A stretch of 64,000 nucleotides of DNA from Macrocystis pyrifera (taxonomy: Eukaryota; Sar; Phaeophyceae; Laminariales; Laminariaceae): assembly GCA_031763025.1 (NCBI GenBank), contig JASSKH010000028.1, forward strand, positions 9,749,359 to 9,813,358, in the 5' to 3' direction. Of this stretch, positions 9,291-62,017 are shown piece after piece. The stretch's first letter is position 1, and each line of letters starts with the position of its first letter. A program made the position numbers and the translations under genes. The notes beneath the pieces are model-generated. The model made no database searches. It was not told the origin of the DNA and saw only the letters and a program-made list of their open reading frames with translations.

Positions 9291-10560
9291 ACGTATATAA
9301 CACGCAAGATAGCACACCTCCCCTGGGGATGAATTTCAGACACGAGTTTCTTCGAAACTTACTTGTAATAGTAGGAATAGAGGAGCACACACAACGAAAG
9401 AAAACGACAACTACTACTACTGTAGTGTTGGGGAACATTTCGTCGAGATCATCTGTCCATTGTCGTCCGCAGTTCCTACCAAGATATTAACACCGGTCGG
9501 CGTGTTTTGCATCCTCCCCGACCGTATTGTCGAGCAAATCAGCGTGGAAACAAATTCGTCGCAGATACTGTAAGTGGTGTGGTATCTACCAGGTACCTGG
9601 TATCTTGCGTCTACTCTCTTTCTTTGTGGCACGGCAAAAATAAACACAATAGAGTAGATGTATGTGCACAACAACATCAACAACGGCAAGCACGACGGCG
9701 GACGCGTGCAATGCTGATGATTCGAATTTTCTCGTCTGCGAAAAATTGAACAGTTCTGGGGGGCACGCCGCCGACGCTTTACTACTACTGCTGCAGCAGC
9801 TGTGTATCACGAGGCTGTGGCCGTGCGTGCGGTGCAGAAATTGAGAAGAGCCGTATTTTAGTGTGTGTGCTGTGTGCTTCCATCAAACGACGGTCGGTCG
9901 ACGAACCGCAAATAGATGACAATTCATGAATTAATTGCAGATTCTGAAGCTACGTTCATTCGTAGCAGCTGCGGAAATTTATATCTCCTCCATTCGTCGG
10001 ATGGATAGGCGGTATATTCTACTCTGTCGGTGCTCCTGCTGGCAGCAGCTGCTCTGTTCTCTGTTACCTGTTGTTGTTGTCGATTCTGGTGCAAAAAAAA
10101 CGAGTTGATCGACCCATCACGCCTCTGTTTGTGATTACTGATGGGCCGTTGGGGCATCAGGTATATTTCGGGTTTTGACTCTAAGACTTGTTGCTCAGCA
10201 AATAAATAGCAAAACAACTCTCTCTCTGTATCAATCTCGATGCCCCCGTGCCAGTAGAAAAAGGGTAGACCACGTATCGCCACGAGTTGGCCGCTCAAGC
10301 GTCTCGAACCAGGACAGAACGCGACACACGTCAACGGCTGGTACACCTGTGCCATACCGAAAGATATCATACCTGTCTGGATGTACCAAATGCCGGTTAT
10401 TACTGGGTACAACGGCATTCATTCCTGTTCATCGATTCAGAGTATACAGTCAGTAGAGTTTTTTGTGTAAGGTTCAAGGTCGGGACACTTTGTATCCCAT
10501 GTTAGCTTTGCATATTAAGCAGGTACTCGTTGGTACTCACGAGAGTTGAATGTTCGAAAT
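9291..10560. other. Non-coding stretch
   Basis: No supported gene. It contains one copy of the short palindrome TACCAGGTACCTGGTA at about 9587-9602, a motif scattered through the whole window. Confidence 0.4.
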
Positions 10561-10567
10561 CCTTAGG

Positions 10568-10690
10568 TTAAACCACTGAGCCACTCAGTCAGCGCTGAGC
10601 AAGTGGTCTAGCAGGTGGGAGTGCTATATAATTCCCAAGGGTGGGTCGGGGGTTCGAATCTCGCCGAATTCCAAATTTGTTCTTTTTCGA
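10568..10690 (+). mobile_element. tRNA-derived SINE-like sequence with partial palindrome
   Basis: AAGTGGTCTAGCAGGTGGG resembles the D-arm/A box of a long-variable-arm tRNA (Leu/Ser class), and GGGGGTTCGAATCTCGCC about 50 bases later is an almost canonical B box/T arm. The anticodon region does not form a normal 7-base loop, so this is a derived element. Its 5' side is an imperfect inverted copy of the head (ACCACTGAGCCACTCAGTC), centred on AGCGCT near 10593. Confidence 0.45.
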
Positions 10691-10790
10691 GCGTGCGCGC
10701 TGGAGACAATACGAATGATTATGATAGTGTGCCTCTAGGCACCACCAGTAGCGTTTGGCGCGGGGAGGGTCCCGGAAATCACTGTTACTG

Positions 10791-10895
10791 TTACGGGGGA
10801 CCATAGTAAATGGGACCAAATTTTGCTAGTAAAAATAGGGAAATATATAGGTTTTTGTGTGTACCATAGGTGCTATTTACTATGGTCCTCCGTAA
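10791..10895 (+). mobile_element. 105-bp MITE, copy 1
   Basis: Terminal inverted repeats of about 24 bp (TTACGGGGGACCATAGTAAA and its complement) enclose an AT-rich core containing AAATATATAGGTTTTT. Same length and structure as five copies at 58.3-61.0 kb. It interrupts a tRNA-SINE-like region. Confidence 0.85.
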
Positions 10896-11000
10896 CAGGT
10901 GGAGAGAACCGCGAACAAAAGAAGTCCGGGGTTGAGTCCCGCCAGACGTCGTATTTCCGCTTTTTCTGCCGTGGGTAGAAAAGGGAAATTGTTATGATAC
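10896..11000 (+). mobile_element. SINE body, copy A
   Basis: AAGAAGTCCGGGGTTGAGTCCCGCC (split here as AAGAAGTCCGGGG and TTGAGTCCCGCC) carries a B-box-like T arm and is followed by the body CAGACGTCGTATTTCCGC and TTTTTCTGCCGTGGGTAGAA. The same body stands at about 51370-51450 with only a few differences, so this is a dispersed tRNA-related repeat. Confidence 0.6.
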
Positions 11001-11480: not shown

Positions 11481-11509
11481 AAGGGTACTTTTTTGGTTTG
11501 AAATATTTA

Positions 11510-11565
11510 CGTTAAACCACTGACCCACTAAGTCAGCGCTGACGAAGTGGCTCAGTGGTTTGACG
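11510..11565. repeat. tRNA-5'-half palindrome
   Basis: Arms of about 27 bases meet at AGCGCT near 11537. The right arm GCTGACGAAGTGGCTCAGTG reads like a tRNA D arm (A box), and the left arm is its inverted copy with a few mismatches. Same design as 51307-51356 and 51601-51681. Confidence 0.75.
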
Positions 11566-11699
11566 TTTATCAACGAACATTGAATGCTTAGAGATAGAAG
11601 AAGAGCAGCTTTATTCCTTTCGAGCACGATGAGGCTGAGAGCAAGGCTCGTTTTCGCTGGGAAAAACCCCTGGTTTTTCATCCAAGATACGCCGTCCAA

Positions 11700-19151: not shown

Positions 19152-19575
19152 CAATAGAGGGGGAGGACGGGAGTGCACTCATTCTCATGCATGGCCGTAG
19201 TCGTATGACCATAGACCCTCGCATCCCTACAATGCCGGGACGAAGCACGTCGGGTTTTTTACCGACCTGGCAGACGTTGCTCGCACCAAGCGCGAAGCGC
19301 CGTGAGGTGTTGGGCGAGTCGCATGAAGGGTGAGCTGCATCCTACGGAGAACCACTTTTTGAGGCGGACTCTCTCCTGCATGGATGACAGCGTCAACGGA
19401 ATTATTTAATTTCTGATGTAGCCACTTCCAGAGACAGCCTTGGGTTTACTACGCAACTGCCTTGTGGGTGCCTTGCCGTATACATACTTCGTTATGCGAT
19501 CATCCCCCTTGTGCGGAGTAAAGGTTCTCCCCGCACAAAAATGATCCAACTCGACCGCCAGCCGTGGTGACCGCG
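19152..19575 (-). repeat. R1 dispersed repeat (about 410 bp, C-rich 3' end), copy 1
   Basis: Read on the minus strand it runs from CGGTCACCACGGCTGGCGG through TGTCTCTGGAAGTGGC, GGATGCAGCTCACCCTTCAT, CTTGGTGC and CCCGACGTGCT to GCATGAGAATGAGTGCACTC, ending in C-rich text. It is near-identical in order to 28720-29130 and 40405-40805. No terminal inverted repeats and no coding frame were seen. Confidence 0.85.
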
Positions 19576-22682: not shown

Positions 22683-22719
22683 GTAAATGCCGAAGGAAGA
22701 GCTCGTTCAAGGTCACACT

Positions 22720-23420
22720 GTCGGGTCGGGCTACGGTAGGGGTTTCAATCGAGGAGTTCTAATCAGGGGTTCCAATCAGGGATTACAATTAGGGGTTGCA
22801 TTTGTGAGGAGGCGTGCTACGGTAGGGGTTCCAAAAAGGGGTTGCAAGTAGGGGGTTCTGGTCAGAGGCTACAGTTCGTGGTTGCAATTAGGGGCTGCAA
22901 CTACGGATTGCGTTTAGGGGGTTGCAATTAAGGGTTGCACTTATGAGGAGGCGTGCTACGATAGGGGTTGCGCTACGGGGCCGGGCCACGGTAGGGGATG
23001 ATGAAATTAGGGGTTGCAATTAGGGGGTTGCACTTATGAGGAGGCGTGCTACGATAGGGGTCGCACTGCCGGGCTAGGCTACGGTAGGGGATGAAATTAG
23101 GGGTTGCAATTAGGGGGTTGCACTTATGAGGAGGCGTGCTACGATAGGGGTCGCACTGCCGGGCTAGGCTACGGTAGGGGTTTCAAATAGGGGGTTCAAG
23201 TCAGGGGTTACGGTTAGTGGTTGCAATTAGGGGGTTACAAGTGGGGGTTGCACCTATGAGGAAGTATGCTACGATAGGGGTTGCGTAGCGGGGCAGGGCT
23301 ACGGCAGGGGTTTAACTTAGGGGTTGCAATTAGGGTTTGCACTTGTGAAGAGGCGTGCGATAGTAGTCGCACTGCCGGACCGGGCTACGGTAGGGTCGGC
23401 TATTAGGAGTTGCATTTATG
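22720..23420 (+). repeat. G-rich tandem array, about 90-bp units
   Basis: Units combine GGGGTTGCAATTAGGGG, GTTGCACTTATGAGGAGGCG, TGCTACGATAGGGGT and GCTACGGTAGGGG blocks. Two units (about 22996-23085 and 23090-23180) are almost identical over 90 bases; the flanking ones are diverged and rearranged. It follows the donor of the coiled-coil exon, so it probably lies in an intron. Confidence 0.85.
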
Positions 23421-26424: not shown

Positions 26425-29400
26425 GTCGAAGAGGCAACCATTGGCAGCCGTCCACACGAACGAGGCGACGATCACCTGCGATGGACATGCGGACGACGGA
26501 GACGTGGCACCGAGGCCTTCTTCGTCTTCGTCACCGAATCCTCCGACGTTTCCCACCGCTGTTACGAAGACCACAGCGGAAATGGCTTCTTCGGAATTCG
26601 GTGCATCCGACCTGTTTTCCGGACCTCTCGTCAAGACGAAAGCAGCGATGGCTCCGAAAACGGAAACTGGTGGTGCTCCCGACCCGTCAAGCCCCGTTGC
26701 TCCTTCATCTCCAGACAAGGAGCAGTTATCGTGCGAAGCGACAGCCATTTGCAGCACCTCCACCTCACCTTCAGCCCCCCCAGCCCTCCAATCTGACTCT
26801 GAACGATCGACGGCAATAAATGGCGCTTCAGGCGAGGAAGACTCCTACAAGTACGACTCCAACAAGGATGATTCCGGCAAGGATGATTCAGAGGAGGACG
26901 TTTCAGACCACGAGGAGGCGGAGGTTTCTTCCACCACACCCGCTTCTTCCTTTTCCTTCATTCCCCGGGCGCAGACCGACAACGATCTGCCTCCGCACAT
27001 CGTGAACAACTGGGCGTCTTGCTCGTCCTCGTCCTCCATCCCCCAAGCGCAGGCCGAGAAGGACTTACCAGCGCACATCATGAGCAACTGGGCGTCTTGC
27101 TCCTCCCCCTCCTCCTCGTCCTCGTCTTCTTCTTCTTGTTCTTCTTCTTGTTCTTCCTTGTCGTCGGAATGCTCCGAGGATTACGAAGATTCCGAGGAAG
27201 TACGGGCTACCCTCGCCAGGGAACAGGTCCAAGCAACGTCGGCTCGCACGGAAGTGCTGCACCAGGCGGAAGGCGTGGGCTTCATGGCGTCGCTTAGCGA
27301 CATGAACGAGGGCGAGGTGACGAAGGGAAAGAGGATTGGAGGTGGGGGGGGCGGAGACATATTTGAGCTCGAGATGGTGGACTCTGATCTGCAGGAAGAA
27401 TTGCTGAGCTTCACCGCGGGCGCCGGTGTCGTTCTTAAGACATTTAAAAAGGTGAACACCATATTACTTCGAACGACTGCGAGTTGTTGTTTTTGACGGC
27501 GCCGGACACATACATCATGAACCCCTTTCGTGCCCGAATAGTCAGCCATACGCCATATCAACGCTCACAAATTTACTACAGCTACAATTATCCTTTGAGT
27601 TCCTTGCGTCGGCTATGCGGCGACGTTCGCACGACTGAGGTCGTGTCAGAGGAATAGACGGACCCACGTAGCCCGTGCAATGGTGGCAGACGGTTTATCG
27701 CTTCCGTGTATACGATGAAGCTTGTTGATCTATGTCGAGCAATCTCGACCATCTAGAGTTGGCACTTGAGGCTGACGTTGGTGACGGCCATATTTAGGTA
27801 CGTCGGTACGGTATATACGAGCGACGACGCCGTGGTTGTCGCACAAGCGTAATGGTACACGCTTTCTTCGACGTTACAGCCTTTGGAGCATTCTGAGCGT
27901 GCGTGTAGTGCGGGGCGTCATTCCGTCTTCATGGGATGATTCTTGTTCTGAGTCAGAGCGCCACGGGGTTAGATTGTTACGTCGCGAGCGGACAATGGCT
28001 GTGATATTCCCTCTATATGAGGCCGAATCGTTCCTATCATCATGCCAAGCTTGAGTTTTACGTATTGCATCGGCGTCGTGCTTGCGCTTTACGCATACAC
28101 TCCATAAAGTGTATTTAGTTTGCATCCGAATCATTCACGAAGCCTTTCGTGCCCCCATGCAACGTCTCGATCTTGATGCACTATATATGACCCTTGCACT
28201 GCTGCTGTGGACGGCCAACGCAGGGAGAGGAATCCAACGGTTTGAGGGAGATTCGCGCGATGGCAAGGTACGATTAGCACGTAGTCCGTTCTTTTATTGT
28301 TCGTCTTCAATTACTTACGGGTTGCCTCTTGCCACATAAATGTATATCCGGGATTTTACAGTGGTGATGGACTGCAGTACATAGGCAATACAGCGCCATC
28401 GCGCAGTCTCGCTCGCCACTCCGGTAAAATCCGTCATTTCGTAAAAGGTTTATAGCGTGTAAACGGCACGAAACGACGACACGAGTGCAACGCAGCACCC
28501 CGGGCGTCTAACTCTGCTCGGAATCGCCCTCTGAAGTGAAAATAAACCAAGTATAGAGCGCGTTCATGCCCCTGCTATTACCGTCTTGACTTCCCTCCCC
28601 GATCGTACATATACATTTATTATATATGGTTTCGGTTGGCGCCGGCTGGCAACGACACCGTCAAACATGCCACCCACTACGTGAGCTACACAACCAGGGT
28701 ACCGTATAGTTTTTTGGCGGTTGGTCACAGCTGGCGATCGAGGTATAGATTATTTTTTCGGGGTGGAGAACCTTTTCTCCGCTCAAGGGGAATGATCGCA
28801 TCACGTAGTGTTTATGGTTTGGCATCCACGAGACAATGGTATAGTACCCCGATTGCTGTCTCTGGAAGTGGCCACACCGGAAAATAAATGAGCTCATTGA
28901 AGCTGTCATCCATGTGCAAGTCCGCATCACAAGCGGTTCTTAGTAGGATGCAGCTCGCCCTTCGTGCGACTCGCCGAACACCTCACAGCACCTTGCGCTT
29001 GGTGCATGCAGTGTCTGTCTGGCGGGTGAAAACCCGACGTGCTCCGTCCCGGCATTGTAGGGATGCGAGGGTCTATGGCCGTAGGACTACGGCTCCGCAT
29101 GATATTGAACACACTCCCCTCCCCCTCCAGCAATCAATTAGACGCTGTCATCCAGTGCAAGGAAATGCACCTCACAAGCGGTTCTTAGTATGATGCAGCT
29201 CACCTTCATGCGATTCGCCTAACACCTCACGGCTCTTCGCGCTTGGTGCAACCAGTGTCTGACTGGTCGATAAAAACCCCGAGGTGCTGCGTTCTGGCAT
29301 TGTAGGATGCGAGGCTATATGGCCAAACAACTACTGTACAACCGCGCATGACAATTCGTACACTCCCCATTCGGCTTCTTTCTCGACAGGTTGATGCCGC

Positions 29401-32400
29401 TTTGCCACCCGAACATTATTGACGTCTTCTCCACCAACATCACGAAGAGGGCGATCGTCATGGAGAAAGTGGCTAGGGACCTCCACGCACTGCTCAACGA
29501 CAAGCGTGTCCTCGACAACACATCTGGGGAGAAGATGGTTCGGTGAGGAATACCTGCGGGGCTCGACGCCCGGAAAAAGCAGATAATCTCGGGTTTAGTT
29601 CGAACTTGCTTGTGCTCCATTCGCAAACGGGGACTTGTGAAAGGAACATCGGTTTTTCGTGTTATGATCGGAGAGTGTCAGTACTGCAAGGGAGAGGCAA
29701 GAAACAATATGTTTTTGGAAACTTGTTGTAGCAGGCCGGCACAACCTCAATGTTGACGTTGACCCTACCCCTAGCCTCAGCCCTAGAGAGCGACTGTTTA
29801 TGGAAACGCGCGCTATCGTGCGACTTGAGGAAACCCTGGGTGGTTTGGGTTGGTAGAGTTTTTCGTATTGCCACCCTTTCGTCTATCCGAAATTATGTGA
29901 AATGTAAACACGGAAATCCTTCATTTCCCGGAAATATACGACACCTAGAGCCTGTAGCTCCTACACCCAGTATAGGTCGTGCCCGCACCCCTTTTTTCAC
30001 ACCTTACGTTGGAAGCCTATTTCGGCGGAGGCCTTGGGTCATGTGAACTTCCGGGGGGCATTCAGTCGATTTTGTTGAGCTGATACACATTTTTCCTTCT
30101 GGTGGATTGGACATTTCGCTGGTCGAGCGTTCGGCGAGCCGCAAAAAAGTGTACCAGGTACAGCTTACTATTAATAAAGCGCATTGTGAGTGATCGTATG
30201 TAGAATGTTTTGTTGATGTGGTGCAGAGTTGTCACAACAAGTCAAAACGTGGTTTGCGATACCTGTTTTCAGGAGTGTTTACCTCCGGCAAGTAATTGGC
30301 GGTTGAGAGTAACCGCTTCCTAGTGCGGCACAGAGTGCCTGCTTATTTGTGCACTACAGTTTTTGATAAACCTGGGCCGATCTCTTTTTCCGCGGCGTCA
30401 GGCCCCGCAGATATTTCTCACCCAACCATCTACTCCTCAGATGGGTTGTCTAGTAGAGGCTTGTCCTCGAGCAGCGCCTGGAGATCCCTGGACACTTTCT
30501 CCATGACAATCACGGAGAAAGTGTCCAGGGATCTACAGGCGCTGCTTGGGGACAAGCATTTACTGGACAACGCGTCCGGGAAGCAGATGGTTGGGTGAGA
30601 AATATCTGCGGGGCCTAACCATCTGCTCCCGAGACGCGTTATCTAGTAGACGCTTGTCTTCGAGCAGCGCCTGGAGATCCCTGGAAACTTTCTCCACGAC
30701 AATCACGGAGAAAGTGTCCAGGGATCTACAGGCGCTGCTTGGGGACAAGCGTTTACTGGACAACGCGTCTGGGAAGCAGGTGGTTGGGTGAGATATCTGC
30801 GGGGGCCGACGCACGCGGAAAAGCGGATCGGCCCAGGTTTAAGTCGCACTTACTTGTGCCCCATTCACACCCGGGAACTTGCGAAACGAACAGCACGTTT
30901 TTGTGGTCCGTTCAGAGATTGTCATTGCTGCAAGGGAGAGGGCGGAAATATTTGTGTTTGTAAACCACTGTATTTCTTTCTTACATGTGGCAGGCCGGAT
31001 CAACCCTAACGTTGACATTGAACCTAACCCTATGCTCAGATCTCGAGAGCGATTGTTTATTGAACCGCGCCCCATCCCGTCCTTGAGGAAACCCTGAGTG
31101 TCTTGGGTCGGTGGGTTTTTTGTATCGTCATCTTTTCGTCTAGACAATGTTGAAGATAAAAATGGACATCCTTCATTTCCCGGAAACGCTCAAAGCTTAG
31201 AGCCTGTAGCTCCTACACCGGGTTTTTATCACACCCGCACACGTTTTTTCACACCTTAGGTTGGAAGCCATTTCGGCGGGGGCCTTATGCCATGCGACAC
31301 CACGGGGGCATTCAGTCCATTCTATTGTGCAAATACACTTTTTTAGTTCTGGTGGATTGGGCAACACGCCGGTCGGGCGTCCGACGAGCCGCAAAAAGTG
31401 TACCAGACACAGCTTACTATTAATAAAGCGCGTTGTGAATGATCGTAAAAGGAATGCTGTGTTTGTATGGAGGAGAGTTGTGTGACGACGGCATGAAACG
31501 TGGTTGGGGTACATGCCTTTTCCCACAAGCGTTTTGTCTCCGGGAAGTGATTGGCGTTTGAGATTAACCGCTCCTCAGTGCGATACAGAGCGGTTGCTTA
31601 CTATTGCACTGCAGCGTTCCCAGTCCACGGAACCTGAACTCAACCCCGTCTCCTTCGGTTTTTTGTTCCGTTATTGGGACGCGGGGCTCAGCGTCCCAGC
31701 GACGAAAAAGGCAGAAGAACCTCACTACCTTCGGCACAGCGCCGACACCGACGACCAAACAATGACCTGCGAACAGCCCGTTTTTTTATCACTCCGTGTG
31801 TACGCCTCCCCACACTGCCTCCTCCGTACCAACTCCTCCCAAATCAATCCTTCCTTGTTTTTTATTCTAGACTGTGTTTGGGTGCAGCGAGAGGCTTGGC
31901 ATACATGCACGAGAAGTCCTTGGTCCACGGCGACGTGAAGCCGAAGAACATTGTTGTTTCCGACGACTTGCAAACCGTGAAGATCATCGACTTCGGCTCG
32001 ACCGGAGGTAAGTACTCGCCAAACTGCGGAATGCACATACAGACACGTACCAGGTATACTCTATTTATATTTGTCGCGTAGAGAGTTAAGCATTCTCACT
32101 CTGTGTCGGTTGGCATCGAGTTTTCTTACCAACTCGCGCTCTTTGGCACTTTCGGCGACGGAGGAAGACTCAGAAAAAAGTCCTGTGAATAATGAAATAC
32201 GCTAGCCGAGAAATCGCGCTACCCGGTGCACACCACCGCTACCGCCAGCAGGGATGGCAGCCTACCTGCTGACCCATAGTCGAACCACCTGCGTGCGAGA
32301 AAAGAGAAAAACACCGCGTGGTTGTTGCGTTTCCGCACATAATCATGGTGGGTACAGGAATACTCCAATTTATCGCATTTTTGATACTCAAAAAGGATTT

Positions 32401-35400
32401 TCACACGCGTATATATCGCTGTGAGGAGTGGGCATAGCGCACGGGGGAATGGTCGACCTTGCGACAAAATGCTTATTGGGGCTTTCAAGTGCCTAACACT
32501 GGCCTTGTCTGCCGCATCTCGTTCAAGTAGACGGCAGTCGCGTGGTGCGCGTGTTTTGGCCTTGGTCGCTGACGATTAAACGTGTAGATCTACTCCTTTG
32601 ATTTAGTGGGGCTGTGTCACACCAGCGACGCAGATTTATCGTTTGACCTTGTATTCACAAGCGTTGTAGAGTAGGAAGGTGTGGTGTTGTTGTGGTGGCG
32701 TTTATGGTCGCCGTAACGTTCGCGTATTCGCGAGGCGGTAAATAGGTAGGCTCTGATAATCCATAAAGCCCGCAGCCTTGCCCTGCCCTTCTTTGGCCCT
32801 CGTTCTACACTACCAACATGAGCGACACAGGTAAGCCTTCACAATAGGAATCGTACTTCCGTGTACAGACCCGTACTATTCAACATATATGTGTGTTTCT
32901 TGCCGTTGGGATAGCTCTATCGCCCGGCTTACGTCAGTATGTTTGCCCGGCGTTCGACAGAAGCCGGCACCGACAAAGTGGCGATGATAACGATGGCCTA
33001 CGCAGCCCCGGAGGTGATGAGCGCCATGTTCGGCAAGGTCGTGACTCTCGATGGGTCTATGGACGTGTGGGCGATGGCTATCGTCATACTGCAGGCTATC
33101 ACCAGGCGGACGGCGGGACCCACTGACGGCGACGTGAGTATTGACAGTGCACGTTGTTTCGCCCGATGAATCGTCCAAACACATGTTATCAACTGCAGCG
33201 ACGGTATGATATCAACTTACAGCAGTACTATAGCCATTCGACAAACACCGCGTGCAACCCGAACACGTGACCCGGTTTTTCCTTTTCCGACGGCATCGCT
33301 GTAAGCTGTTTTTGTCACCACTTGGATTACGACCATTTCCTATATATTTGCACGACATGATGCGTTTTTGTTATGTCTACTCAGGGGGTAGATGAAGTCC
33401 CAGGAAAGCGCCAAATAAGTTTTGCGTTGTTGCTGTTCAAGCGCATTTGCCGTGGCATCATAGTTGCAGCGCGCGCGTACGTTCTGTTTCCGCAAATATT
33501 TGGCACCGGCAGGTTCTATCGCGCCACCATGGCATTATCTGCCCTCCCGAAGATGCCGAGGCTTTCCGCATCGCCGAGGCCAACGTGGAAATCCTCCTCG
33601 CACGAGCTAAAAACTCTAAATCTGAAGCCGACAAGAACGCCTTGGGCGAGGCCAGCCGGAACCTCGTGAGGCTGATCGTGAGTTGCCTCAACCTGCGCTG
33701 TGTATAAGCATCTTTGACTGTGTTGCTATGTTACCGTGGTGTCAGGGCGATTTTCGTCCACAAGGGGTCGTTGTCGTTTTCGTTGACGCGTTGGCCTGCT
33801 TGCGTTTATGACTGAGCCGTAGGCGGGTTGGTGTTGTACAATAGAGAGACTACGTTGCGCGGAGGGCTCGTCTAAAGTAGAGTTGTATCCGGCACAAACC
33901 CTTGAAAGTGTCGAACGCAGCAGTTTGTTTCGTCGGCAGGCTTCTCGTGCTCCATTTCGTCTCCCCGATAAAAAAAAAAAAAAGTTACTAGGCAAGCATA
34001 TCGTTTTTTTACGTCTCAAACTCTATAGCAAATTACCACGAATAAATTGCTATCATTTCGCGTGGGGCACATTCACACGAAGTAACGAAGCACAATCCAC
34101 ACTGGTATCTCAACGATATACCGGGACACTGGCTGTTGGGGTTCAGCATTTAGGTGTCTGACCATGACTTGGTTCGTGGGCACTACTCCACGAACAATAT
34201 CTCCTAAGCAACCACAAGACAACTGCACGTGAGGTTGCGAATCATGTGTTCAACGACCCACTAAGGAACAAACGACATCTGGCCAGATATTTAAATGGTA
34301 GTGGGGTGTGGTGCAACGGTGCTGACTACAAGTACTCCCAGGGCTAAGGCGACGTCGACAACGAACGATACTGGAGCTTGTTTCAGGGTGACGAGGCGAC
34401 AACGTCTCGCTTACGTTTGGGACGATCAAATGCATGCGGATCTTCAGCTAGGATCCTCGTACGATACGCTCTGATCATCTCATGACATTGCGGCACGATA
34501 TTTCCATGTCTCCAAATACCCAAACTAGACGGTTTATCTTTAACGAGAAAGTGGAAATTAGTCGGCGAGGCCTTACCAGGACCACGCTTTAACGCATGTT
34601 TTCTTGAAAAAAAGTAGGCTCCAACCCACTCCTTTTTTGTCGCACCCCGCTTTGCATCCGGGTGATTAATTGGGACTAATTCGAAGCGGCAGGTGTAGGA
34701 TAGCGCTTAGTGGCCTTACCCTCTGCCATCCATATATCCACACAACGCACGTCACACCTAGTAATAGCACATTTTCGCTCTTGGTGCCTCGCTTGATCGT
34801 CTTCGACAAAAGGGCCTCCACGCAGGAATGCGAGCTAAGATGAGCCCTCCGAGGGAATACATGCTGTCGCCCCGTGTCTGGAAGGAACAGTGGGGGCTGG
34901 GGCATCTTGGCGAGGTGAGTCTTGACGACGTCGGGTGATGGCTGCAGCCTCTTCCCAGCATTAATTGGACTCTCGAAGCATGGCCTTTTGAGGCACTTTG
35001 GCGAATCTGTGTAGTAGGTCGTCGATCCGACCAGTGTCCAGCCCAGCTGCAAACGAGCGCCCCCGGTACACCCATGCACTGCAGGAGCCTCAGCCTATTT
35101 ATCGATGCTGCACATTGGTCACACACTTGCATCGGAGCTCTACATTCCAACACCGGTGGAGATCGTGATATGTTGACTGGGAAGTATTCCTCTGTTAGAC
35201 GGATGGAATAGCGTTTAATCGAATCTCCTGCTGGAGCAGGTACCCGAAGGCAGCGCACCATTATTTCCCGCGCAGGAATTACTGCTATGCTGGAACATTT
35301 TATCTTCCCTCAGGTCGGGCCGACGTACTCACGCGTCCGAGGGTACGGCAGGCAGCACGGTTGGGTACTACAACAACCCGTTCGCTGTGTGTCACAACAG

Positions 35401-38602: not shown

Positions 38603-41600
38603 GTCTCCTCGCAGCGTCGCCGCGACGAAAGCAGCTGTTGCGATGCCCACGCAGACCTCGAGATCCTCGTGGGCGTACTTCAGCACAACCTTCCTTCCGT
38701 CCTTCGCCACCGCTTCCAGGCGCATGGCGTTCGTCGCCCCGACCTGGAAAAAGGGCCGTGTCTAGCGTTGAGAGCACAACCTAGCTAGCTTTCCGTGTCA
38801 GCGCTGTGTTCTGAGCAGAGCATAAGCGATTCAGCACCATGCAAATCATACCCCAGCACTTGCATGCATACATGCTTACGCTATGGTTGCTCCGCACACG
38901 AGACAGGCACGGCCACTCCGTGCGCGGTGTGCCCGCTAACGTCGAACGCGTGATCGCTACCTTCCGCCCACAGGCCTGACGTCGGTCTCGCCACAACTAG
39001 TCCCCGTAACCAGCGATGCGGACTTGAGGGCCAGTGGGTGGGTAGGTGGGCAGGCGGGTGGGGAGTGGGGATATTCCGCTACCCGACAAAAGTAGGCAGA
39101 GGCATTTCATGCATGCATGCATGCCAGTGGGACCTTCCAGCGGCAGTGACGGTAACAAGGGCCTTGAGCGATGTCCGGAAGGCGCACCATACGGAAACTT
39201 CACTGACCTGACGACCTCAATCCCACAAGTCAAAAGAAAACGCCACAAAACAGTAAGCTGTCTCTTCTTACCAGCTTATCGGTTATTCGAACCAAAGGCT
39301 CCGAGAACTCCGCGAGAGCCTGCATGAGGTCGCGGTTTCCCATGATGCTATCGGGCAGCAGCGTCATGCCCTTCAGAAGGTAGTTCCACGGCTCGGGCGA
39401 AGTGCCGAAGTGCCTGCGAAATCGGAGGGTGGCGGCGTTTGAAAAAAATGATCGAATCGTCGGTCCATGAACCCATGCTCACAAACACGTTTGGGGAGCG
39501 AAGTTCTCGGAATTAAATTTGTACTGCATATGTTTTTTGGCAGTAGCAAACGAGAAAAAAATAACGCCACTTTCCAGGTATAAAACGCTCATGAGATCTC
39601 TCCTTATGCAAGGGGCACACGCAGCTCAAATCTCCATCTGCATAAAATCCTATGAATAGCGTTAGAAGCACGCCGGTACTACTTAATTCGCCTCAAAACG
39701 AGCGACGTGACCCCAGGGCACGACGGGCTTGGCGGAAACACTCACGTGCTGATGTTTGGGACGCCGAGCACCTGGTTGCAGGTGAAAGACTCGATGAGGT
39801 TCATCCTGAACACCTGTTCGTTGCGCGTTCGTGCAACGCACACGATCACATCGGCGTTGCATCAGTTGTGAGGATGTCAGCTCTGGCGTGGCCGGGGCAC
39901 GACACATATCTGTAGCGGGAACAGTCCGCCCACCGCAACTGTTGCTGTACAAGTAAGCCGTCGGCGCCACAGGTAAGGAGCACGAACCGGTTGACGGATT
40001 ACACCGTCACAAGCGCCCACAAGGGGAAGCGATAATCGTACAACCACCGAACGCAAAATGCTTAGAACAACACTACGCTCCGCCGTGCACGAGGCCAGAG
40101 CTAAGACAAATGCGAGCAGCAGGACACTTTTATCGTCTTGTTTGCGAGCTTATGGCGGCTCAATGCTCGACGTACGAACAACCTACCGAATTTAACAGCA
40201 AAACATCTGGTACCCTTACACACAACCCATTTGTGTTCGACCGTGGTCGCAGATCGCTGGCAAGCAGCTCACCGTTTTTTCTCCGATGGACTCGCCGAAG
40301 TCAACCTTCTTGAAGCCACTGGCGGGCTCGTGGAAGATTTTCTTGCCGTCCTTGAACCCGAGCACTTTTTCGCAAAGAATGAGAAACTGTTTTGCACGGG
40401 GTCGGGGCGGGGAAGGTGTACTCAATATCATGCATGGCCGTAGTCATGTGACCATAGACCCTCGCATCTTTACAATACCGGGACGGAGCGCGTCGGGTTT
40501 TCACCGACCAGGCAGACATTGCTTGCACCAAGCGCGAAGTGCCGTGAGGTGTTGGGCGGGTCACATGAAGGGTGAGCTGCATCCTTCAAAGAACCACTTT
40601 AGAGGCGGATTTTCTTGCATATGGATGACAGCATCAATGAATTGATTTAATTTCTGGTGTGGCCACTTCCAGAGACAGCAATGGGTTTACTCTGTAACTG
40701 CCTCGTGGGTGCTTCACCATATACACACTACGTGATGCGATCATCCCCCTTGTGCGGAGTAAAGGCTCTCCCCGCACAAAAATGATCTAACTTGACCGCC
40801 CAGAGCCCAGGGGGGGGGCGTAGGGAAAAAAACAACACTAGGGACCAAACAGTGGTTGGTACGTGTGTTTTGAACGCAAGTTGGACAATCTGTTCACCTC
40901 TAAGACACCGCGTGCCTCAGGAAGGAGGGTTGAACCGACAACACAACCCTGACTGGTCGCGGAGAAGAAACACCTTCACATCCATGATAGTTTCAAGCGC
41001 AGAATGGGTACACGGGCCCTCGCCCACCGCCAACGAATAACCGCACGACAGGTGTCGATTTTTTTCACCCAAAACTATGACACTGAATGGGTTCCTATCA
41101 AGGGAGCTTGGCGTGCGGAAGAACAGCAGCAGCACAATAATTCGCGTGCCATGGCCGGACGCATCGACTGCCAACACGGGAAAAATTGTCTCACCGTCGC
41201 GCTTAGGATTGTCGTGCCCGCATTTCCCGTTCCTGCCGTGTATGCGGAAAAGTCTATCGACTCGACCTCGCTGGCACCACCTAATAGTTCACACGCCTGC
41301 GGTGCTCGTACCATAGCGTATAGGCATTGGAGTCGGGGCAAAACGGGTGGCGGGATCACACGGGCATTGAATTCATCAGGCAACGGACCATTGAACAGCG
41401 CAGCAAAATATAAGTGTACTTTCTGCGCAAGGATGGTATCGGCGGCGCGCGCCCACGCCCAGCCTTAGCGCTGAAAAACGCATAGCCCTCGGGGCGTATG
41501 ACGGCGCGGATGGTGCGCAAAATGCAGTATACTGGAACGCTGCACGTCACACCGCGCCACGCCACACCACGCTACAGCACGGGTGTGGGGGATATCGCGT

Positions 41601-44600
41601 CTTTCAGCACATCAAAGCATAACCACTCCTACTGTAGCGCCTGCGGAGGTGCTTTGGGCGCATACGCAGCTTGGGGTTGTCCCTTCTACACCGCAGGAAT
41701 TGCGTTAAACGCTGCGTACACACCTCGACAGCCATTAGTTGGTCCACCCCCGGCCAGATGCCCGCCGATATCGTCGCCGCGACCCCAGCTTCCTGCGCCC
41801 TTTCGTTCAGCTCCTTCGCCACGGTCGCCAAACCGGCGTCATCGCAAACGTCAACGTAAGGGATCTGCGCGATATGAGGACGCGAAATCACGAAAGCGCG
41901 GAACGATTTACATCGTTCGTGCGCAGGGTTCGTGCGTGGGGTTGCAAGTGCAGCCCACAGAAGCGCCGGGGAGTGGGAGATCAATTGTGCAAAACATCCC
42001 AACGACTTATATATGGCGGTTGCATCGTCTGACCGCTCCGTTGGGTTGAGTGGGAAACCCCCGTGGTTCGTGGCCAGCCTTGTGTTTGGTCTTGGGGGCG
42101 TTACTTGCTTGCCGATGTTTAGACACTGTACGTTAGCAGATTTCTGCAGACGTATAGAACATACCGCGTGCAGGGCGTAAAGGGCGAGGAAGCACTCTTA
42201 CAGCAGAATGGATGAGTGCAGGGACGGGTTGATGGAAGGAGGAAACGTTATGCAGTATTTATGGTAGGTCAGCGGAGAGGGGGGATATTCTGCGACCCAG
42301 GATGTAACCGTAGGGACAAGGGCGGATAAAGAAGCTACGAAAAAAACTGGAACAGATCATTTACAGTCACGAAAAAATGGTAGCTACACACAGAGATGTG
42401 CGTTATCTTACGTTCCTGTCACGTGCTTTAGAGTTGCCATACTAACTTTCCCGGGGGGGGGGGGGTAGGGGGGGGGGGGGGGGGGGGGCAGGAGTCCCGA
42501 GTGGCACTAGTAACGCTACGCTGCAAAAATACGCTACACCACCCAACTATTCCACGCCATCACGATGTCTTTGTCTTGCCTTGGCCTGGATGGCGGCCTC
42601 CAGCACCTCGGGCCTACGTTTCCGTTGAAAAGGCCCCGCCGTGTGCACGACCAGATCGCAGCCTGAGAGAGCCTTGGTCAGCGACGAGGCGTCCCCAAGG
42701 TCGATCTCGCAGAACTTCACGTCCGAGTAATCGCACCCGTCTGGTGCTCCCGGCAGCGTACGCCATCGCTGTCGCAAGAACAAGGGAGAGGCGGTTCAAA
42801 ACGTGCACGGTTTGGCTCGGCGATCGAGGGGGCAGAACAAGAACAAGCGATGTTATCTGATGCTGAGGAACAAAGCACGAGGGAGGAATAACAGTACGCG
42901 TCTGACTTTCGCAGCCGTTATTTTCACCGGGGGAGGGGTCGGGCAAGATTATATGCACGTCTCACAACACCCACGACCAACGACTATTCCCAGCACTGGA
43001 GTGCGCCTCTCTTTCCTTCACTGATACTACACGATTGTCCCGTACGCAAGTTGGGATGTTCATACTGTTGAATAGTGCATACAACGTTAACGTTCTTGCT
43101 CAGAAAACGACTATGTGCGCACCCGGACGCTACTTTGCAGCCCCACTTTAGCCTCGTGTTTCGTTTCTAAATCGAAAGAAAATCATTAAGATAGTCGTCA
43201 ACGTTGTTAACGACCCATGCAGCCCCACTCCCGATACCAAAGAGGACTTTCGCGAGAACGAGAGCCCGGAAATCTTCGCTGCCGTTTATCGTGACTCCCG
43301 CCGCCACGATGATTATGGCACGTCCGCCGCTATAGCCGTCGTGGCTGTCACGTGTCACTCCCGACGACAGCGTTGGTAGGCGCCGGCCTTTGCTTTTGGG
43401 TACTACAGTACGTACGTACGTGGGCTGACGGCGCGGTTCGCCCAAAGGTGAGATACTCCTTCGCCATGACCGCCCGCCGGCGGACCCACTTGTACGATCT
43501 CAGACACCTACCGGTACTGACAACTACCGGTACCGCTGTACCGCTGCTGTGTTCGTACTGTGTCTCCTAGCCTGCTTCCAGGATGATAGCACAGGTGTAT
43601 CAGGTAAAACAATACGAGTAGCTTCACGAAAACGTATACCCCGATTATCGAGTATCCGAACGTCGCAAGGTACCGTAAGGTTGAGCTCTGCGTACAGTAA
43701 GTACTACAGCGATTACTGCCGGCAACCAATCGTTAATGTTGCAGCACTGCAGAGTAGCCGACGTAGAGCAGAGGCTGGTATTGCGCAAGGGTACGATCAC
43801 GCAGGAGCGGCTTATATACGCTGTGCCAGCCTACCTGGCAAAAACCTTCGGCGGGAAACAAGAGACGAAGCTGAGAACGTCTATTAATACGAGGACCACA
43901 CGCAGCTTGCAAAGATGAGTTTCGAGGAATTTTCGATCTCCCGGTTAAGGTTCTTTTAACTTGACCCGGGCAGCATCCAGGGGAGCCGCTGGCCTATATC
44001 TTTGACAAGGAATCACATATAGAATACGCGCGTTTGGTTTATCACAATACATGTAAAATTCGGTAAAAAATGGAATATAGACGAGGCGTATTACGCAGCT
44101 TGCAAAGTTGAGTATCAACTATTTAATTAGTCGAACTCACAGCTGACGTATTTCAAAATTTGTAAAATACATACTGTTTGCATTGCTGTACAGCAGTACG
44201 AACATATAATAGTGTTTACCGCACCTCGACGCTCTTGACGAAATTCCTCTCGCTCCGCCCACCGACGACGAGCTCAGCATTCGGGCCCAGGAGATGACGT
44301 AAAGCTCGGACAGTACTGCCTCCGACTCGACCCGAGCCCCCGATGACGACCACCTTCTTGGTGTCCTGCACGGCGACGTCTTCGATTGTCCCTCTTGATT
44401 GCAACGACACCAGGCTGCGTTTCCGGGTCTCGCCGCGTATAGTCGTCGTAGTCGACGCGCGACTCCGACTGGGTCATCATGTTAAACGGGGAAGCAGCGC
44501 CACATCAGAAGAACATGAGCCGTCGACATGAAGTCAACCCGTTATCTACTACCAGGTAAATGCTGCTGTAAGGCATCACTAGGTATACTCGTTGGACTGC

Positions 44601-51285: not shown

Positions 51286-51306
51286 CTTTTGTTCGAATAT
51301 TAAGAT

Positions 51307-51356
51307 TAAACCACTGAGCTACCAAGTCAGCGCTGACTGAGTAGCTCAGTGGTTTA
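51307..51356. repeat. tRNA-5'-half palindrome joined to a SINE head
   Basis: Arms of 25 bases meet at AGCGCT. The right arm GCTGACTGAGTAGCTCAGTG is a tRNA-like D arm with a good A box, and the left arm is its inverted copy (one or two mismatches). The right arm continues into the SINE-like element. Confidence 0.85.
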
Positions 51357-51560
51357 TCCTTTATATCTCGAACAGAAGAAGTCCGGGGTTCCAGTCCCGC
51401 CAGACGTCGTATTTCCGCTTTTTCTGCCGTGGGTAGAAAAAGGGAAATCAAGTGGAGCGAACCACTTCATTAAAAGAATGCACGACTAGCGAGGGAGACA
51501 GTAGGAAGGAAAAACCAGGCGCTGATTAGGGGCTTGATCAACCCCGGAAGATGCTATCAG
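51332..51560 (+). mobile_element. tRNA-derived SINE, copy B
   Basis: The head GAGTAGCTCAGTGGTTTAT (A box) is followed 35 bases later by GGGGTTCCAGTCCCGCC (B box, T arm), then the body CAGACGTCGTATTTCCGC and CCGTGGGTAGAAAAAGGG, then AAGTGGAGCGAACCA and AACCAGGCGCTGATTAGG. The body matches 10896-11000 and the tail matches 11324-11455. Length is about 215 bp, typical of a SINE. No poly-A tail was seen. Confidence 0.6.
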
Positions 51561-51600
51561 CGGGAGGCCGAGGCCGTGTCGAGCCCAAAGGTACTTCTTT

Positions 51601-51681
51601 GTTCGATTATAAAGGATAGACCACTGAGCTACTCAGTCAGCGCTGACTGAGTAGCTCAGTGGTCTATCTTTATAATCGAAC
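51601..51681. repeat. tRNA-5'-half palindrome, near-perfect 40-bp arms
   Basis: GTTCGATTATAAAG..., inverted, equals ...CTTTATAATCGAAC. The arms are identical apart from one extra G on the left and meet at AGCGCT (51629-51634). The central 20 bases of each arm are the tRNA-like GACTGAGTAGCTCAGTGGTC text; the outer half is AT-rich. No B box follows. Confidence 0.9.
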
Positions 51682-57560: not shown

Positions 57561-58311
57561 AAAAAAAACGCATCCTGAAACGCCTTTGCTTTTCGTTTTG
57601 TCGTGGGTTACACTTACTGCAGTTAGTTGTGTCATGTTCGACCCTATTATGTATCAGGTATATACTTCGTGTAGCGTATTGCGCAATAGTATTGGTTGAG
57701 ACTTGCGGGCTAGCTTGCGACTGCGGACCAAATCGACCAGCTCGCATTTTCTTCGTTGTCGACAGAGCGTCGATGCCCTGCTCGAGGTTCTGATCATGCT
57801 TGAAAAAGGCGGTGTTTTTGCAACCGGCGCATGTATTTTTATGAATCCACTTGATCGTGGGAGCGTGAGCCCCCTTGCAGTGTCCGCGAGAGACCTACCT
57901 CATGGACGTTGTTGCAGCAGATAGATTGACCACTGCCGCCGCCCCGTCAAGCCGAGACGGTTGTTTGAGAGAGCCGGAGGGACGTGTCGGACTTCTTTTC
58001 CCGTATAGGACAGAAACGGATGTTTTTTTTTTTTGCTCGAAAAGGCTGTCTGAGGTGTTGTCAGTGATCTTTTGATCACTTTGTGTTATTTGTCTTCGAT
58101 TCTGTGAAGAATATAACTTGAGTTAATTGAGCACACGATGCACCTCTTCAAGGCCGTGGCCAGCGCCGACGGAAGAAACATGAGGTGTTCTACGATAGAG
58201 GTTCACCCTAACTTTTCCGAGGCTCCTCGCTTAAGGAGCTCCATACCTCACCCGAAAACTGACGTCAGCAAAAATCAAATTGCATCCCGATGAAGAAATC
58301 CCATGGCCCTA
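57561..58311. other. Non-coding, one weak exon-like frame
   Basis: A minus-strand frame near 57725-57895 reads with closely spaced Cys/His and Lys (HCKGAH, then NTCAGCKNTAFFKHDQ) and could be an exon of an unknown zinc-binding protein. No splice partners were found and it is not called. Confidence 0.25.
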
Positions 58312-58416
58312 TTACGGGGGTCCATAGTTAACAGGACCAAATATTGTTGGTAAAAATACCTAAATATATAGGTTTTTATGTATGCCACAGGTCCTGTTAA
58401 CTATAGACCCCCGTGA
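58312..58416 (+). mobile_element. 105-bp MITE, copy 2
   Basis: Ends TTACGGGGGTCCATAGTTAA and the near-complement GTTAACTATAGACCCCCGTG; core AAATATATAGGTTTTTATG. Same orientation as copy 1. Confidence 0.88.
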
Positions 58417-59035
58417 TAGTATACGAAAATATCATTTTTCGAAAAACTAGATTGGCATTCCAACGATTTTGGTTCAGGAACCCCATCATTCTGAAAAAAA
58501 AAAATAGCGGAAATATGCCCTCTCTATCGTAGAACGCGTCACATGCAGAAAGCGTGTACACCGGTACGTATTTAAAAAAATCAGGCTTTCCTGGTATTAA
58601 TATTAGCACTACTGTAGGCTCCCAGATACCTGGTATATACGATGCCTATTTTTTTTTGTGTGTATCTGAGATTTCTTCGGGACGGAACGGTACCCAGCGA
58701 CCACGGAGTGCGCTTGTCGGGATTGCGAAGGACTCAGCCTCCGTGGTACTCTCGTGCGGGGCCCAACCCCATCCGGGATTTCACCTTGGGGGACTGCACA
58801 AGGGCTGACCACCACGGTAACTTACTGTACGTGTGGGATTGGGACTGCGCGGGACTCGCGACACTGCGGTTTTACACGGGTGGGATCGGGCCGCGCCGAA
58901 ACGAAATGTTTCGAGGCCATGTGAGGAGACCCTTTCACGTGCGGAGGGAGCTCCATGCCACCACGTGGCGCTTGTTTTTCTTGTTCTTCCTGCACTGTTT
59001 AGGGCTGGGCACTGGCACGGTATGTACTGATCGTA

Positions 59036-59140
59036 TTACGGGGGACCATAGTAAATAGGACCTACGGTACACACAAACTATATATATATTCCCTATTTTT
59101 AAGAACAATATTCGGTCCTATTTACTGTGGCCCCCCGTAA
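59036..59140 (-). mobile_element. 105-bp MITE, copy 3
   Basis: Ends TTACGGGGGACCATAGTAAA and TTTACTGTGGCCCCCCGTAA; the core is in the opposite orientation to copies 1, 2 and 4. Confidence 0.88.
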
Positions 59141-59405
59141 TAGTATTCTACTGACTGACCTGGCCAGTATGTTCGCCAGTAATTTTTATCGTACGTACGC
59201 CCTAGAAACATGCCATACTATAGTACGAAAATCCACCGCTTGCGCTTCGGGACGAGGGAGTAGAGAGGAGGGACAGTATACTGCTGCAATCCTGTACGTA
59301 TGCTGATTGATCTTGACGGCAGTACAGTCGCTACAGATCGAGTCAGCCAGTCCCCAGCCCTAGCATTGTTGGTGTATAATAACAGGTCGTACGCAAAAAG
59401 TACTA

Positions 59406-59518
59406 TTATGGGGGTATGGGGGTCCATAGTTAACGGGACCAAATTTTGTTAGTAAAAATAGGTAAATATATAGGTTTTTATGTACACCGTAGGTCCTATT
59501 AACTATGTATCCCCGTAA
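59406..59518 (+). mobile_element. MITE, copy 4 (113 bp)
   Basis: As copies 1 and 2 but with a short repeat at the left end (GGGGGTATGGGGGTCC) that adds 8 bases. Confidence 0.88.
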
Positions 59519-60232
59519 TAGATCTGGTATATATACCGCTTTGGGCGGGAATGCAAGGACCGTTTCATTTTTCATATTCCGTCGTTACGTTTCCGTCAAG
59601 AACGGCAAGCTCCATTGAAATTTCTCAACAGGGACCAAGATGAGAGAACAAACAATCGTACGAAAAAAAAATACGATACATACTACTTGAGGTATATGCA
59701 TGATGCGTACTAAAGTCAAAATACAATTAATACCGAACAGGGCGTGTCGATCTGCAAAAAAAAAAAAGCATCCTCTCCGTTTTCCGCGTGTATTCGTGTG
59801 GCCTCTTCAGGTACTTCGGGGGCCGGCATATATTCTACCTGCCCGCTGCCTGCTGCCTGTGGAGTGCCTGTCTTCAGTTGCTTGGCCCGAAAGGTGCGAG
59901 GAGACTGGATTGAGACTGTTTTACGGCGTGGGATCGGCCCTCACTCGTTGTACCGAAGCAAAAATCGGACCTCATTTTGTTTTCGAGAGCTAGACAGGAG
60001 GGTATACTAAAACCAAGTTCAAAAAGTTAAAAAAAAAAGAAGGTGTGTATGATTTTCTCGGTTCATGTATACAGACAACGCTCCGATTTTTCTTCTTTTT
60101 GCCTTTCTAGGGGTATGGCTCCATTTTCTCTTGTTTTCTTGCTCCCCTGGTTGAACGTATACTACGATACCGAGGACAGGAATGCGCGTAAACAGGTTAA
60201 TTATTATAGGAGTTATGGTGATGTTTTATATA

Positions 60233-60337
60233 TTACGGGGGTCCATAGTTAACAGGACCTATGGTATACATAAAAACCTATATATCTGCCTATTTTTACT
60301 AACAATTTTTGGTCCCGTTAACGATGGACCCCCGTAA
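60233..60337 (-). mobile_element. 105-bp MITE, copy 5
   Basis: Ends TTACGGGGGTCCATAGTTAA and GTTAACGATGGACCCCCGTA. The core is opposite to copies 1, 2 and 4. Confidence 0.88.
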
Positions 60338-60897
60338 TAGTAAGGTGTGGGAACAGCAGTAGATCAGCTTTCGCCCGCATTCACCGAAATCACTGTTCCG
60401 CCGAAAAAAAAAACGCTGCCGGGGTCTCTGTTCCCGAGCAGTGTCGACTCGAGCGTAAGGAGGAAAGGAAGGCACTTTACCCCGAAAGAAAAAAACAATC
60501 GCGCTTGAATATGGCGTGAGAGCCTCGTAAACGGCAGATGTAGTAACAGAGAGGGCACCTTATCCTCCAGAAGAGCTTACAACTTATTCGAGAACATAGT
60601 TTGCACACATTTTGTACGAGACGTAGGGAATATTGCTAACCAGTGGTAGATTGGGTCTGATGGTGATCTGGTATCCCCTCTCTCCCCTGTTGCGGCATTA
60701 TGATTTGTAGCAAGCGTCCCCTCATCATACCTGGCAGGCGTTATCGCCTGCCTGCCTTACTGATGAATGCCTCGCCTCGTCGTTCAGAAGACATCTGGCG
60801 AGGCAAGCAGCAACTAATACAAGAGCCTATAACTTCTAACATCATCAAGCAACTTCTTGTGTGAGTGACCAGAGCGGAGCCAAAGGCACACCTGCTA

Positions 60898-61002
60898 TCA
60901 CGGAGGACCATAGTAAATAGCACCTACGGTATACACAAAAACCTATCTATTTCCCTATTTTTACTGACAAAATTTCGTCCCATTTACTATGGTCCCCCGT
61001 AA
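60898..61002 (-). mobile_element. 105-bp MITE, copy 6
   Basis: Ends TCACGGAGGACCATAGTAAA and TTTACTATGGTCCCCCGTAA. Closest to copies 1 and 3, which share the ATAGTAAAT form of the end. Confidence 0.88.
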
Positions 61003-62017
61003 TAATAATCGGTCCCTAGCTTCATACTTCCCTATACGCTTAACGCTGGCGTCGTCGGCAGGACACTTTTGGGACGAGGTCTGTTTTTTTTTTTTCGACG
61101 ACAATTTTGGCTTTTCGCTCTTGAAGCCTGCTTTTTTGGCCTCTACTTGCTGTTTATTCGATGTCCTCTCTTTTTGGTGATTGCGCTCGAGAGTATGATA
61201 TCCGCCGCTTCCCCAGCGCGTCGCGCGGTGAGACTGGTACAGCAGCCGCTATAGGCTCATGCGATGTTGGCCCGTGCGACCTAGGGGATTTTTTGTACTC
61301 TCCCGGCCCGCCTGTTTATCCACTTGTTGGTAGCACGAGCATCTGTGTCACTGCTGCTATTTTTGGTAGTGTCACAGCCCCTCTGCCACTGCTTGCAACA
61401 GATAGACCCTCGTTCCTTTCACCCACGCTTGCCGCTGGTTCGAGCTGCAAGCCCGGACACAGTGAAACGCGCGCTGGCTCCAGAACAGCGCTCCGGGCAG
61501 CCAGTTCCGTTCTGGGCGCAGCAGGATAGTCGTCCGAGCCTTTCTCGGGTGTATGTTGCCCGTCACGCTAAAAGTCCGACTATTTTATTTCGTGATCGGC
61601 TCGGCCGCCCATGTCCATTCTTAGGGTTTGACTATTTTTCGTCTCTTCACATAATTGACCCTCAACCGTTTTTTCGAATAAGTGGTAAGCTCCCCTCGCG
61701 TTGCTACCTTCTTCGGCGCTATGGTTGATGATTGCTGTGTACGATACGAACATAGCTATTACCCCTAACCCCCACCGAGCCAACCAAAGCTGTACCAGGT
61801 ATGGATTTAATCATCCTCGTGTCGTACGTACGCAGTGTGCGCCTACCATAGTATCGAATTAAGTGGTGAAGTATCTGTTAATACTGGGGTTGCTGGCTTG
61901 TGCGTGTTTTGTACTTGTCGTATCCAGTACGTTGGCATGGCATTGCGTTTCCTACTCTCCTGAGCTGAGTCTTCATGCTTCATTGCGACTGAAAATATTT
62001 AATGTCTGTATCGTAGT
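61003..62017. other. Non-coding stretch
   Basis: Two overlapping frames at 61161-61728 (122 and about 134 codons) lack domains, and only the first has an ATG. A block TGACCCTCAACCGTTTTTTC and AGTGGTAAGCTCCCCTCG (61650-61700) recurs at 62999-63045. Confidence 0.35.

Follow-up and report, generated by a model that had tools for sequence, protein, structure and literature searches.

A nested palindrome of kinase exon 3 ends within intron 3 of a Macrocystis pyrifera protein kinase gene and its possible template-switch history

The region analysed here (the window) is a stretch of 64,000 nucleotides of the Macrocystis pyrifera genome, located at positions 9749359-9813358 of its contig (C209). Genome searches covered 537,376,219 bases in 223 contigs. 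The assembly is described as 537 Mb in 223 contigs, the largest of 26 Mb, obtained from one haploid female gametophyte with PacBio reads at ~100x and a mean read length of 15.8 kb (PMC10498591). The window contains a protein kinase gene whose joined exons match the Pfam Pkinase family at 1.9e-27. Exon 4 by itself also matches this family, and exon 3 on its own matched no Pfam family. The exon borders are our reading of the sequence from AG/GT sites and the reading frame, with no transcripts used. Intron 3 spans positions 29543-31870, and the features within and around it are listed in Table 1.

At 30363-30842, inside intron 3, about 90-95 bp of the end of kinase exon 3 is present in four copies of alternating orientation (E1', E2, E3' and E4), which confirms the arrangement put forward in the original prediction. 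In three of these copies (E1', E2 and E4) the sequence extends through the splice donor into the intron, so the repeated unit is an exon end plus the start of the intron that follows it. Each half of the block is an inverted repeat, as had been predicted, with the inner inverted pairs exhibiting 86.4% (30397-30619) and 82.6% (30614-30788) identity. Both pairs have an identical 3-nt spacer between arms that are 82-87% alike. Each inverted copy therefore lies head to head with its source around a 3-nt centre, as is expected of a template-switch inverted duplication. Compared with its own reverse complement, the block at 30367-30841 is 81.8% identical, so the two halves can be read as inverted copies of each other as originally described, but they fit better as direct repeats of a 193-bp unit (91.7%). 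Because the halves are 91.7% identical as direct units and about 82% as inverted ones, the last step was a direct tandem duplication and not the second of two rounds of inversion-duplication that had been suggested.

Table 1. Features of kinase intron 3 and its flanking exons, in window positions
Feature	Position	Strand	Basis or content
Kinase exon 3 (working copy)	29390..29542	+	AG/GT sites and frame into exon 4
Segment A: working exon 3 end and ~820 bp of intron	29457..30362	+	Diverged from paralogue 9452
E1'	about 30363-30506	-	Inverted exon 3 end, donor and ~50 bp of intron; in-frame TAG
3-nt centre (CAA) of the first inner palindrome	30507..30509	.	Sequence
E2	30510..30613	+	Forward exon 3 end, donor and ~17 bp of intron
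E3'	30614..30699	-	Inverted exon 3 end
3-nt centre (CAA) of the second inner palindrome	30700..30702	.	Sequence
E4	30703..30842	+	Forward exon 3 end with donor; runs unbroken into segment B
Direct tandem repeat of the 193-bp [E' E] unit	30421..30804 (30421-30613 and 30614-30804)	+	91.7% identity
Segment B: relic exon end and second copy of intron 3	30703..31614	+	Counterpart of the paralogue 9452 intron
Kinase exon 4, catalytic loop (HGDVKPKN) and DFG	31871..32007	+	Pkinase 2e-11; borders read from sequence

Compared two by two, the four copies are 82-94% identical (six pairs), a difference of 6-18%. E2 and E4 share 102/108 sites, E1' and E3' share 73/83, and the four cross pairs agree at 82-86%. 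The corresponding stretch of the working exon, placed in one alignment with the four copies, matches them at 112/146, 83/110, 65/83 and 112/149 sites (75-78%). The copies are thus closer to one another than to the working exon, in keeping with the earlier observation. Recent gene conversion between the arms had been offered as one explanation for this, and it is at odds with arms that are 14-18% diverged.

Segment B (30703-31614) matches 29458-30359 at 75.1% over 933 columns and represents a ~900-bp duplicate of intron 3 headed by E4. The left border of segment A is uncertain and lies at about 29453-29480. The palindrome centre maps to exon position 29453-29458, which is the left edge of segment B, so the inverted copy and the tandem copy have a junction in common, as would be left by one event. 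This ~900-bp duplicate, the location of the palindrome centre at its left edge and the better match of the halves as direct repeats were absent from the original prediction.

The window carries several other repeats. A dispersed ~400-bp repeat occurs in both orientations, 75-90% alike, at 28754-29325, 19159-19559 and 40405-40800, as well as at L021 3536-3955, and has a ~245-bp internal tandem copy at 28918-29334. Four related 74-nt units (51288-51361, 51598-51671, 10550-10623 and 11494-11567) have a near-perfect self-complementary core of the CAGTCAGCGCTGACTG type, and from their sequence they look like small palindromic elements. A ~110-bp repeat family with direct and inverted copies, 61-91% alike, is found at 58310-61008 and 10785-10898. 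At 22704-23418 there are degenerate repeat units, roughly 60-114 bp long, that have a motif like CTACGGTAGGGG. Long G runs on the plus strand at 736-837, 1919-1999 and 42420-42491 are possible quadruplex or assembly-sensitive spots.

The exon 3 peptide has eight matches in the genome. Seven are the query exon, the four copies and two further complete exons, and the eighth, on another contig, is weak. The two full paralogous exons are on the same contig at 9452 kb and 8285 kb (2.1e-19 and 2.9e-16, respectively). Each of these paralogues has a single exon 3 end, and neither has an inverted repeat with arms of at least 50 within 300 bp. The 9452 locus repeats the region around the kinase gene in inverted orientation, with large pieces that are 85-94% identical and smaller ones nearby that are 75-82% identical. 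The paralogue in this copy (within contig positions 9446000-9455999, minus strand) is interrupted by a stop in its exon 2, and its exon 5 is broken. Its exon 4 is without a match, and the stretch where exon 4 is expected is unmatched to window positions 31519-32598. Paralogue 9452 therefore looks like a pseudogene. For paralogue 8285, all five of the exon pieces tried gave matches free of stops.

The paralogues change how the similarity among the copies is to be read. A peptide difference between the copies and the working exon had been taken as a sign of one founding copy. The exon 3 peptides of the paralogues, VSRDIQALLDDK and MSRDLQSLLDDR, both carry the S and Q that are also found in VSRDLQ of the copies, so these residues are the ancestral state and it is the working exon that has changed. 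The only copy-specific residue is the G or E before DK. The working exon matches that of 9452 at 63/67 sites before the break and at 66/85 after it (P 0.006), and the two paralogues match each other over the corresponding parts at 56/72 and 63/85 (P 0.71). Since the identity with 9452 drops after the break and that of the paralogue pair does not, the end of the working exon together with the segment A intron belongs to a different lineage than the front of the exon. Copies that are more alike than any is to the exon can thus reflect a changed exon, which in this case was revealed only by the paralogues.

The intron tree groups segment B with paralogue 9452 at 100% bootstrap, with segment A outside. 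Quartet sites across the exon end and intron point the same way, with 32 joining B and 9452, 13 joining A and B, and 6 joining A and 9452. Segments A and B have nearly the same identity to paralogue 8285 (70.9% and 70.4%, respectively), so A is not simply changing faster. Paralogue 9452 matches B from the first shared site, 29480. In the exon tree, E2 joins E4 at 99%, E1' joins E3' at 57%, the four copies group at 88% and 9452 follows at 60%; the sequences are short and the nodes with low values are weak. The tail of E1', scored at the 14 sites where A and B differ, is B-like at 10, A-like at 2 and like neither at 2. Segment A branches before B and 9452, and the copies cluster later, so the copies do not all date from a single event. 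Segment B exhibits 82.3% identity with 9452; B may be older than the split between the window and 9452, or the intron may change faster.

The RNA of the block is predicted to fold at -389.7 kcal/mol, and 100 shuffled sequences have a mean of -171.5 kcal/mol with none so low (z -33.3). This bears out the predicted strong hairpin. Folded separately, the halves give -190.5 and -144.2 kcal/mol. On the basis of this model, a hairpin RNA would likely form if the intron is transcribed. Selection on pairing is expected to raise G-U above A-C mismatches on the transcribed strand, and the ratios are 6:6, 7:5, 5:6 and 9:5 in the four arm pairs (not independent of one another). The two inner hairpins together have 13 G-U and 11 A-C mismatches, which gives no sign of upkeep (P 0.84) in a comparison with few sites and low power. 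With G-U about equal to A-C and an in-frame stop (TAG) in the copy E1', there is no sign of selection on the hairpin.

The 920 possible 21-mers of the block were scored for pairing as mismatches plus half of the G-U pairs, with no shuffle control. On the kinase's own exon the best score is 1.5, with 9 of the 920 at or below 2, 134 at or below 4 and none at or below 1. On the intact paralogue 8285 the best score is 2.5, with 6 at or below 2.5, 92 at or below 4 and none at or below 2. The broken paralogue 9452 has 4 exact matches (best score 0) and 18 of 1 or less, and its exon 3 has a 24-nt exact antisense match to the block. Searching 29300-32000 against Rfam at E up to 1 gave eight matches, all below the gathering scores, of which seven are to miRNA models (best mir-605, 4e-11). 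The genome has five matches to the Piwi domain over the cut-off, all at a single locus and one with an internal TGA, and one partial match to RNase III; from these matches, a small-RNA pathway seems to be present in part.

The arms may also carry a trace of coding history. In every one of the 21 pairs among exon-end copies and exons, including the six copy pairs, dS is greater than dN. Differences between the arms are rich in synonymous changes when compared with a neutral simulation in which the branch lengths were set by us (0.55 and 0.27, P 0.007), and 4 of the 6 fixed arm differences counted are synonymous (P 0.05). If this synonymous excess is real, the arms would have diverged in part as coding exons, before they were brought together.

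The nested palindrome is genuine. Copies that differ by 6-18% make a long-read hairpin artefact unlikely, and arms that are 14-18% diverged are not the expected product of a read with a missed adapter. The window has many dispersed inverted repeats, as would suit a mobile element of the foldback or miniature inverted-repeat type that captured exon sequence. The search of the genome with the block gave seven matches at three loci, these being the kinase and its two paralogues, a lower bound as repeats may be missed; the mobile foldback element is rejected on this copy number, without copies at unrelated loci. Among the 25 longest of 26 inverted-repeat pairs in the window with arms of at least 60, only the two in the block are less than 390 nt apart, and none of the six loci examined (47 kb in total) has an inverted repeat with arms of at least 50 inside 300 bp. 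A mobile element or an assembly error, the latter also opposed by the ~100x long-read coverage (PMC10498591), is the most improbable of the readings. The dS/dN pattern in all six copy pairs, the splice donors retained in E2 and E4, and the frames of E2, E3' and E4, open across the exon end, would be in line with relics of a once-used duplicate (alternative) exon 3, or with parts of one still in use. All of the copies are missing the front half of exon 3 and its acceptor, E1' has a stop, and the synonymous excess is borderline on the fixed differences, which leaves a duplicate exon very improbable. The block could also be a nascent microRNA or hairpin-siRNA gene, in which the kinase exon end, inverted and doubled in its own intron, would give with each kinase transcript a hairpin cut by Dicer into small RNAs that damp the kinase family, along the inverted-duplication route to MIRNA genes. 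The very stable fold, the origin of the hairpin from inverted copies of coding sequence, the Piwi and partial RNase III matches, the 24-nt antisense match and the seven Rfam miRNA-model matches are consistent with this, as is the location of 75% of the miRNA loci reported for Ectocarpus inside protein-coding genes, mainly in introns (PMC4513859). Against it are the equal G-U and A-C counts, the lack of 21-mers at or below a score of 1 on the kinase's own exon and of 2 on 8285 (scored with no shuffle control), and the broken appearance of the best-matched gene, 9452; the Rfam matches are of a kind that any long hairpin may give by chance. The nascent gene is accordingly improbable, a small-RNA function of the block is unlikely, and the suggestion that the hairpin supplies small RNAs against the kinase exon is not supported.

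Whatever the history of the block, it very probably has no selected role. The reading that we favour, tentatively and at a little under an even chance, is a DNA rearrangement scar of this kind produced by template switching. During replication of exon 3, synthesis would have switched template and run along segment A, a diverged version of the exon 3 end and intron, before rejoining the exon end of the gene itself, on the wrong strand, to make E1'. A turn within about 3 nt would then have sent synthesis forward once more, across the exon end and the intron that are now E2/E4 and segment B. The older exon end and its splice donor would be stranded as a relic in the lengthened intron 3, head to head with its own inverted copy, and the working exon 3 would have become a hybrid of the old front half and an A-type end. 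Later, the [E' E] core would have doubled directly as a 193-bp unit to give the four alternating copies. The block would most likely be part of the kinase transcript and be lost when the intron is spliced out. Against this history, the search for a donor of segment A returned none in the genome besides B and the two paralogues (a search that may miss repeats; a B query returned the same four places), so the donor would now have to be lost. The weak exon-tree nodes (57% and 60%) and a B-9452 identity below that of the large flanking pieces also count against it. An older tandem duplication would avoid the lost donor, B being the closest match of A in the genome. The exon 3 end and ~900 bp of intron would have doubled into A and B ahead of the gene duplication that gave the copy at 9452 kb, the 9452 locus would later have collapsed to one copy, and the inverted copy would have arisen later and separately at the A/B junction, again with no selected role. 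The equal order of A and B in tandem over ~900 bp and an A/B branch that precedes the B/9452 split both agree with it. However, 9452 is B-like from 29480, so the collapse must have crossed over before that site, within about 25 bp of the ~900; the inverted copy would have had to land at the A/B junction a second time by coincidence; and E1' is nearer to B than A is. The old tandem duplication is a real possibility, short of probable. Since template switching explains the shared breakpoint and the collapse of 9452 must fall in so narrow an interval, the template-switch history is held to be somewhat likelier.

The palindrome resembles several known systems in part. Template switching is described as able to create hairpins in one step (PMC8794818). 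Like the hairpin mutations of that report, the kelp block has a reverse-complement copy that is head to head with its source and capable of forming a stem; it differs in its arms of ~100-140 bp, in carrying an exon end with a donor, and in the addition of a foreign-looking segment and a later direct duplication. In human rearrangements, inverted copies between tandem copies are known from the cases described in PMC4352052. The kelp locus likewise has tandem copies that flank an inverted partial copy, as in duplication-inverted triplication-duplication, but it spans hundreds of bases where the human events are of disease scale, and its segment A is older than E1' and B. No publication on the kelp kinase palindrome locus was found in titles and abstract openings, which is no proof that none is in print.

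MIRNA genes are reportedly born by inverted duplication of their target gene, an origin said to have been set out by Allen et al. in 2004. The kelp hairpin is similar to the inverted-duplication MIRNA genes considered in PMC3237417 in that it derives from inverted coding copies with homology along both arms; in contrast to these, it is inside an intron of the very gene that was copied, and no upkeep of pairing was seen. It also resembles the intronic miRNA loci of Ectocarpus, being a hairpin in a brown-algal intron on the strand of the host gene (PMC4513859). By the search made in that study, the Ectocarpus loci exhibit no trace of an origin from protein-coding genes, whereas the exon origin of the candidate kelp hairpin is plain. 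Should the improbable nascent gene prove true, it would represent the inverted-duplication microRNA route in a brown alga, for which the Ectocarpus study reports no evidence (PMC4513859), with self-regulation built into an intron. The locus is a clear case, with a readable order of steps, of a long intronic hairpin made from coding sequence by an inverted copy and then a direct doubling. Many brown-algal microRNAs are intronic, which makes loci of this type material for testing where these microRNAs come from.
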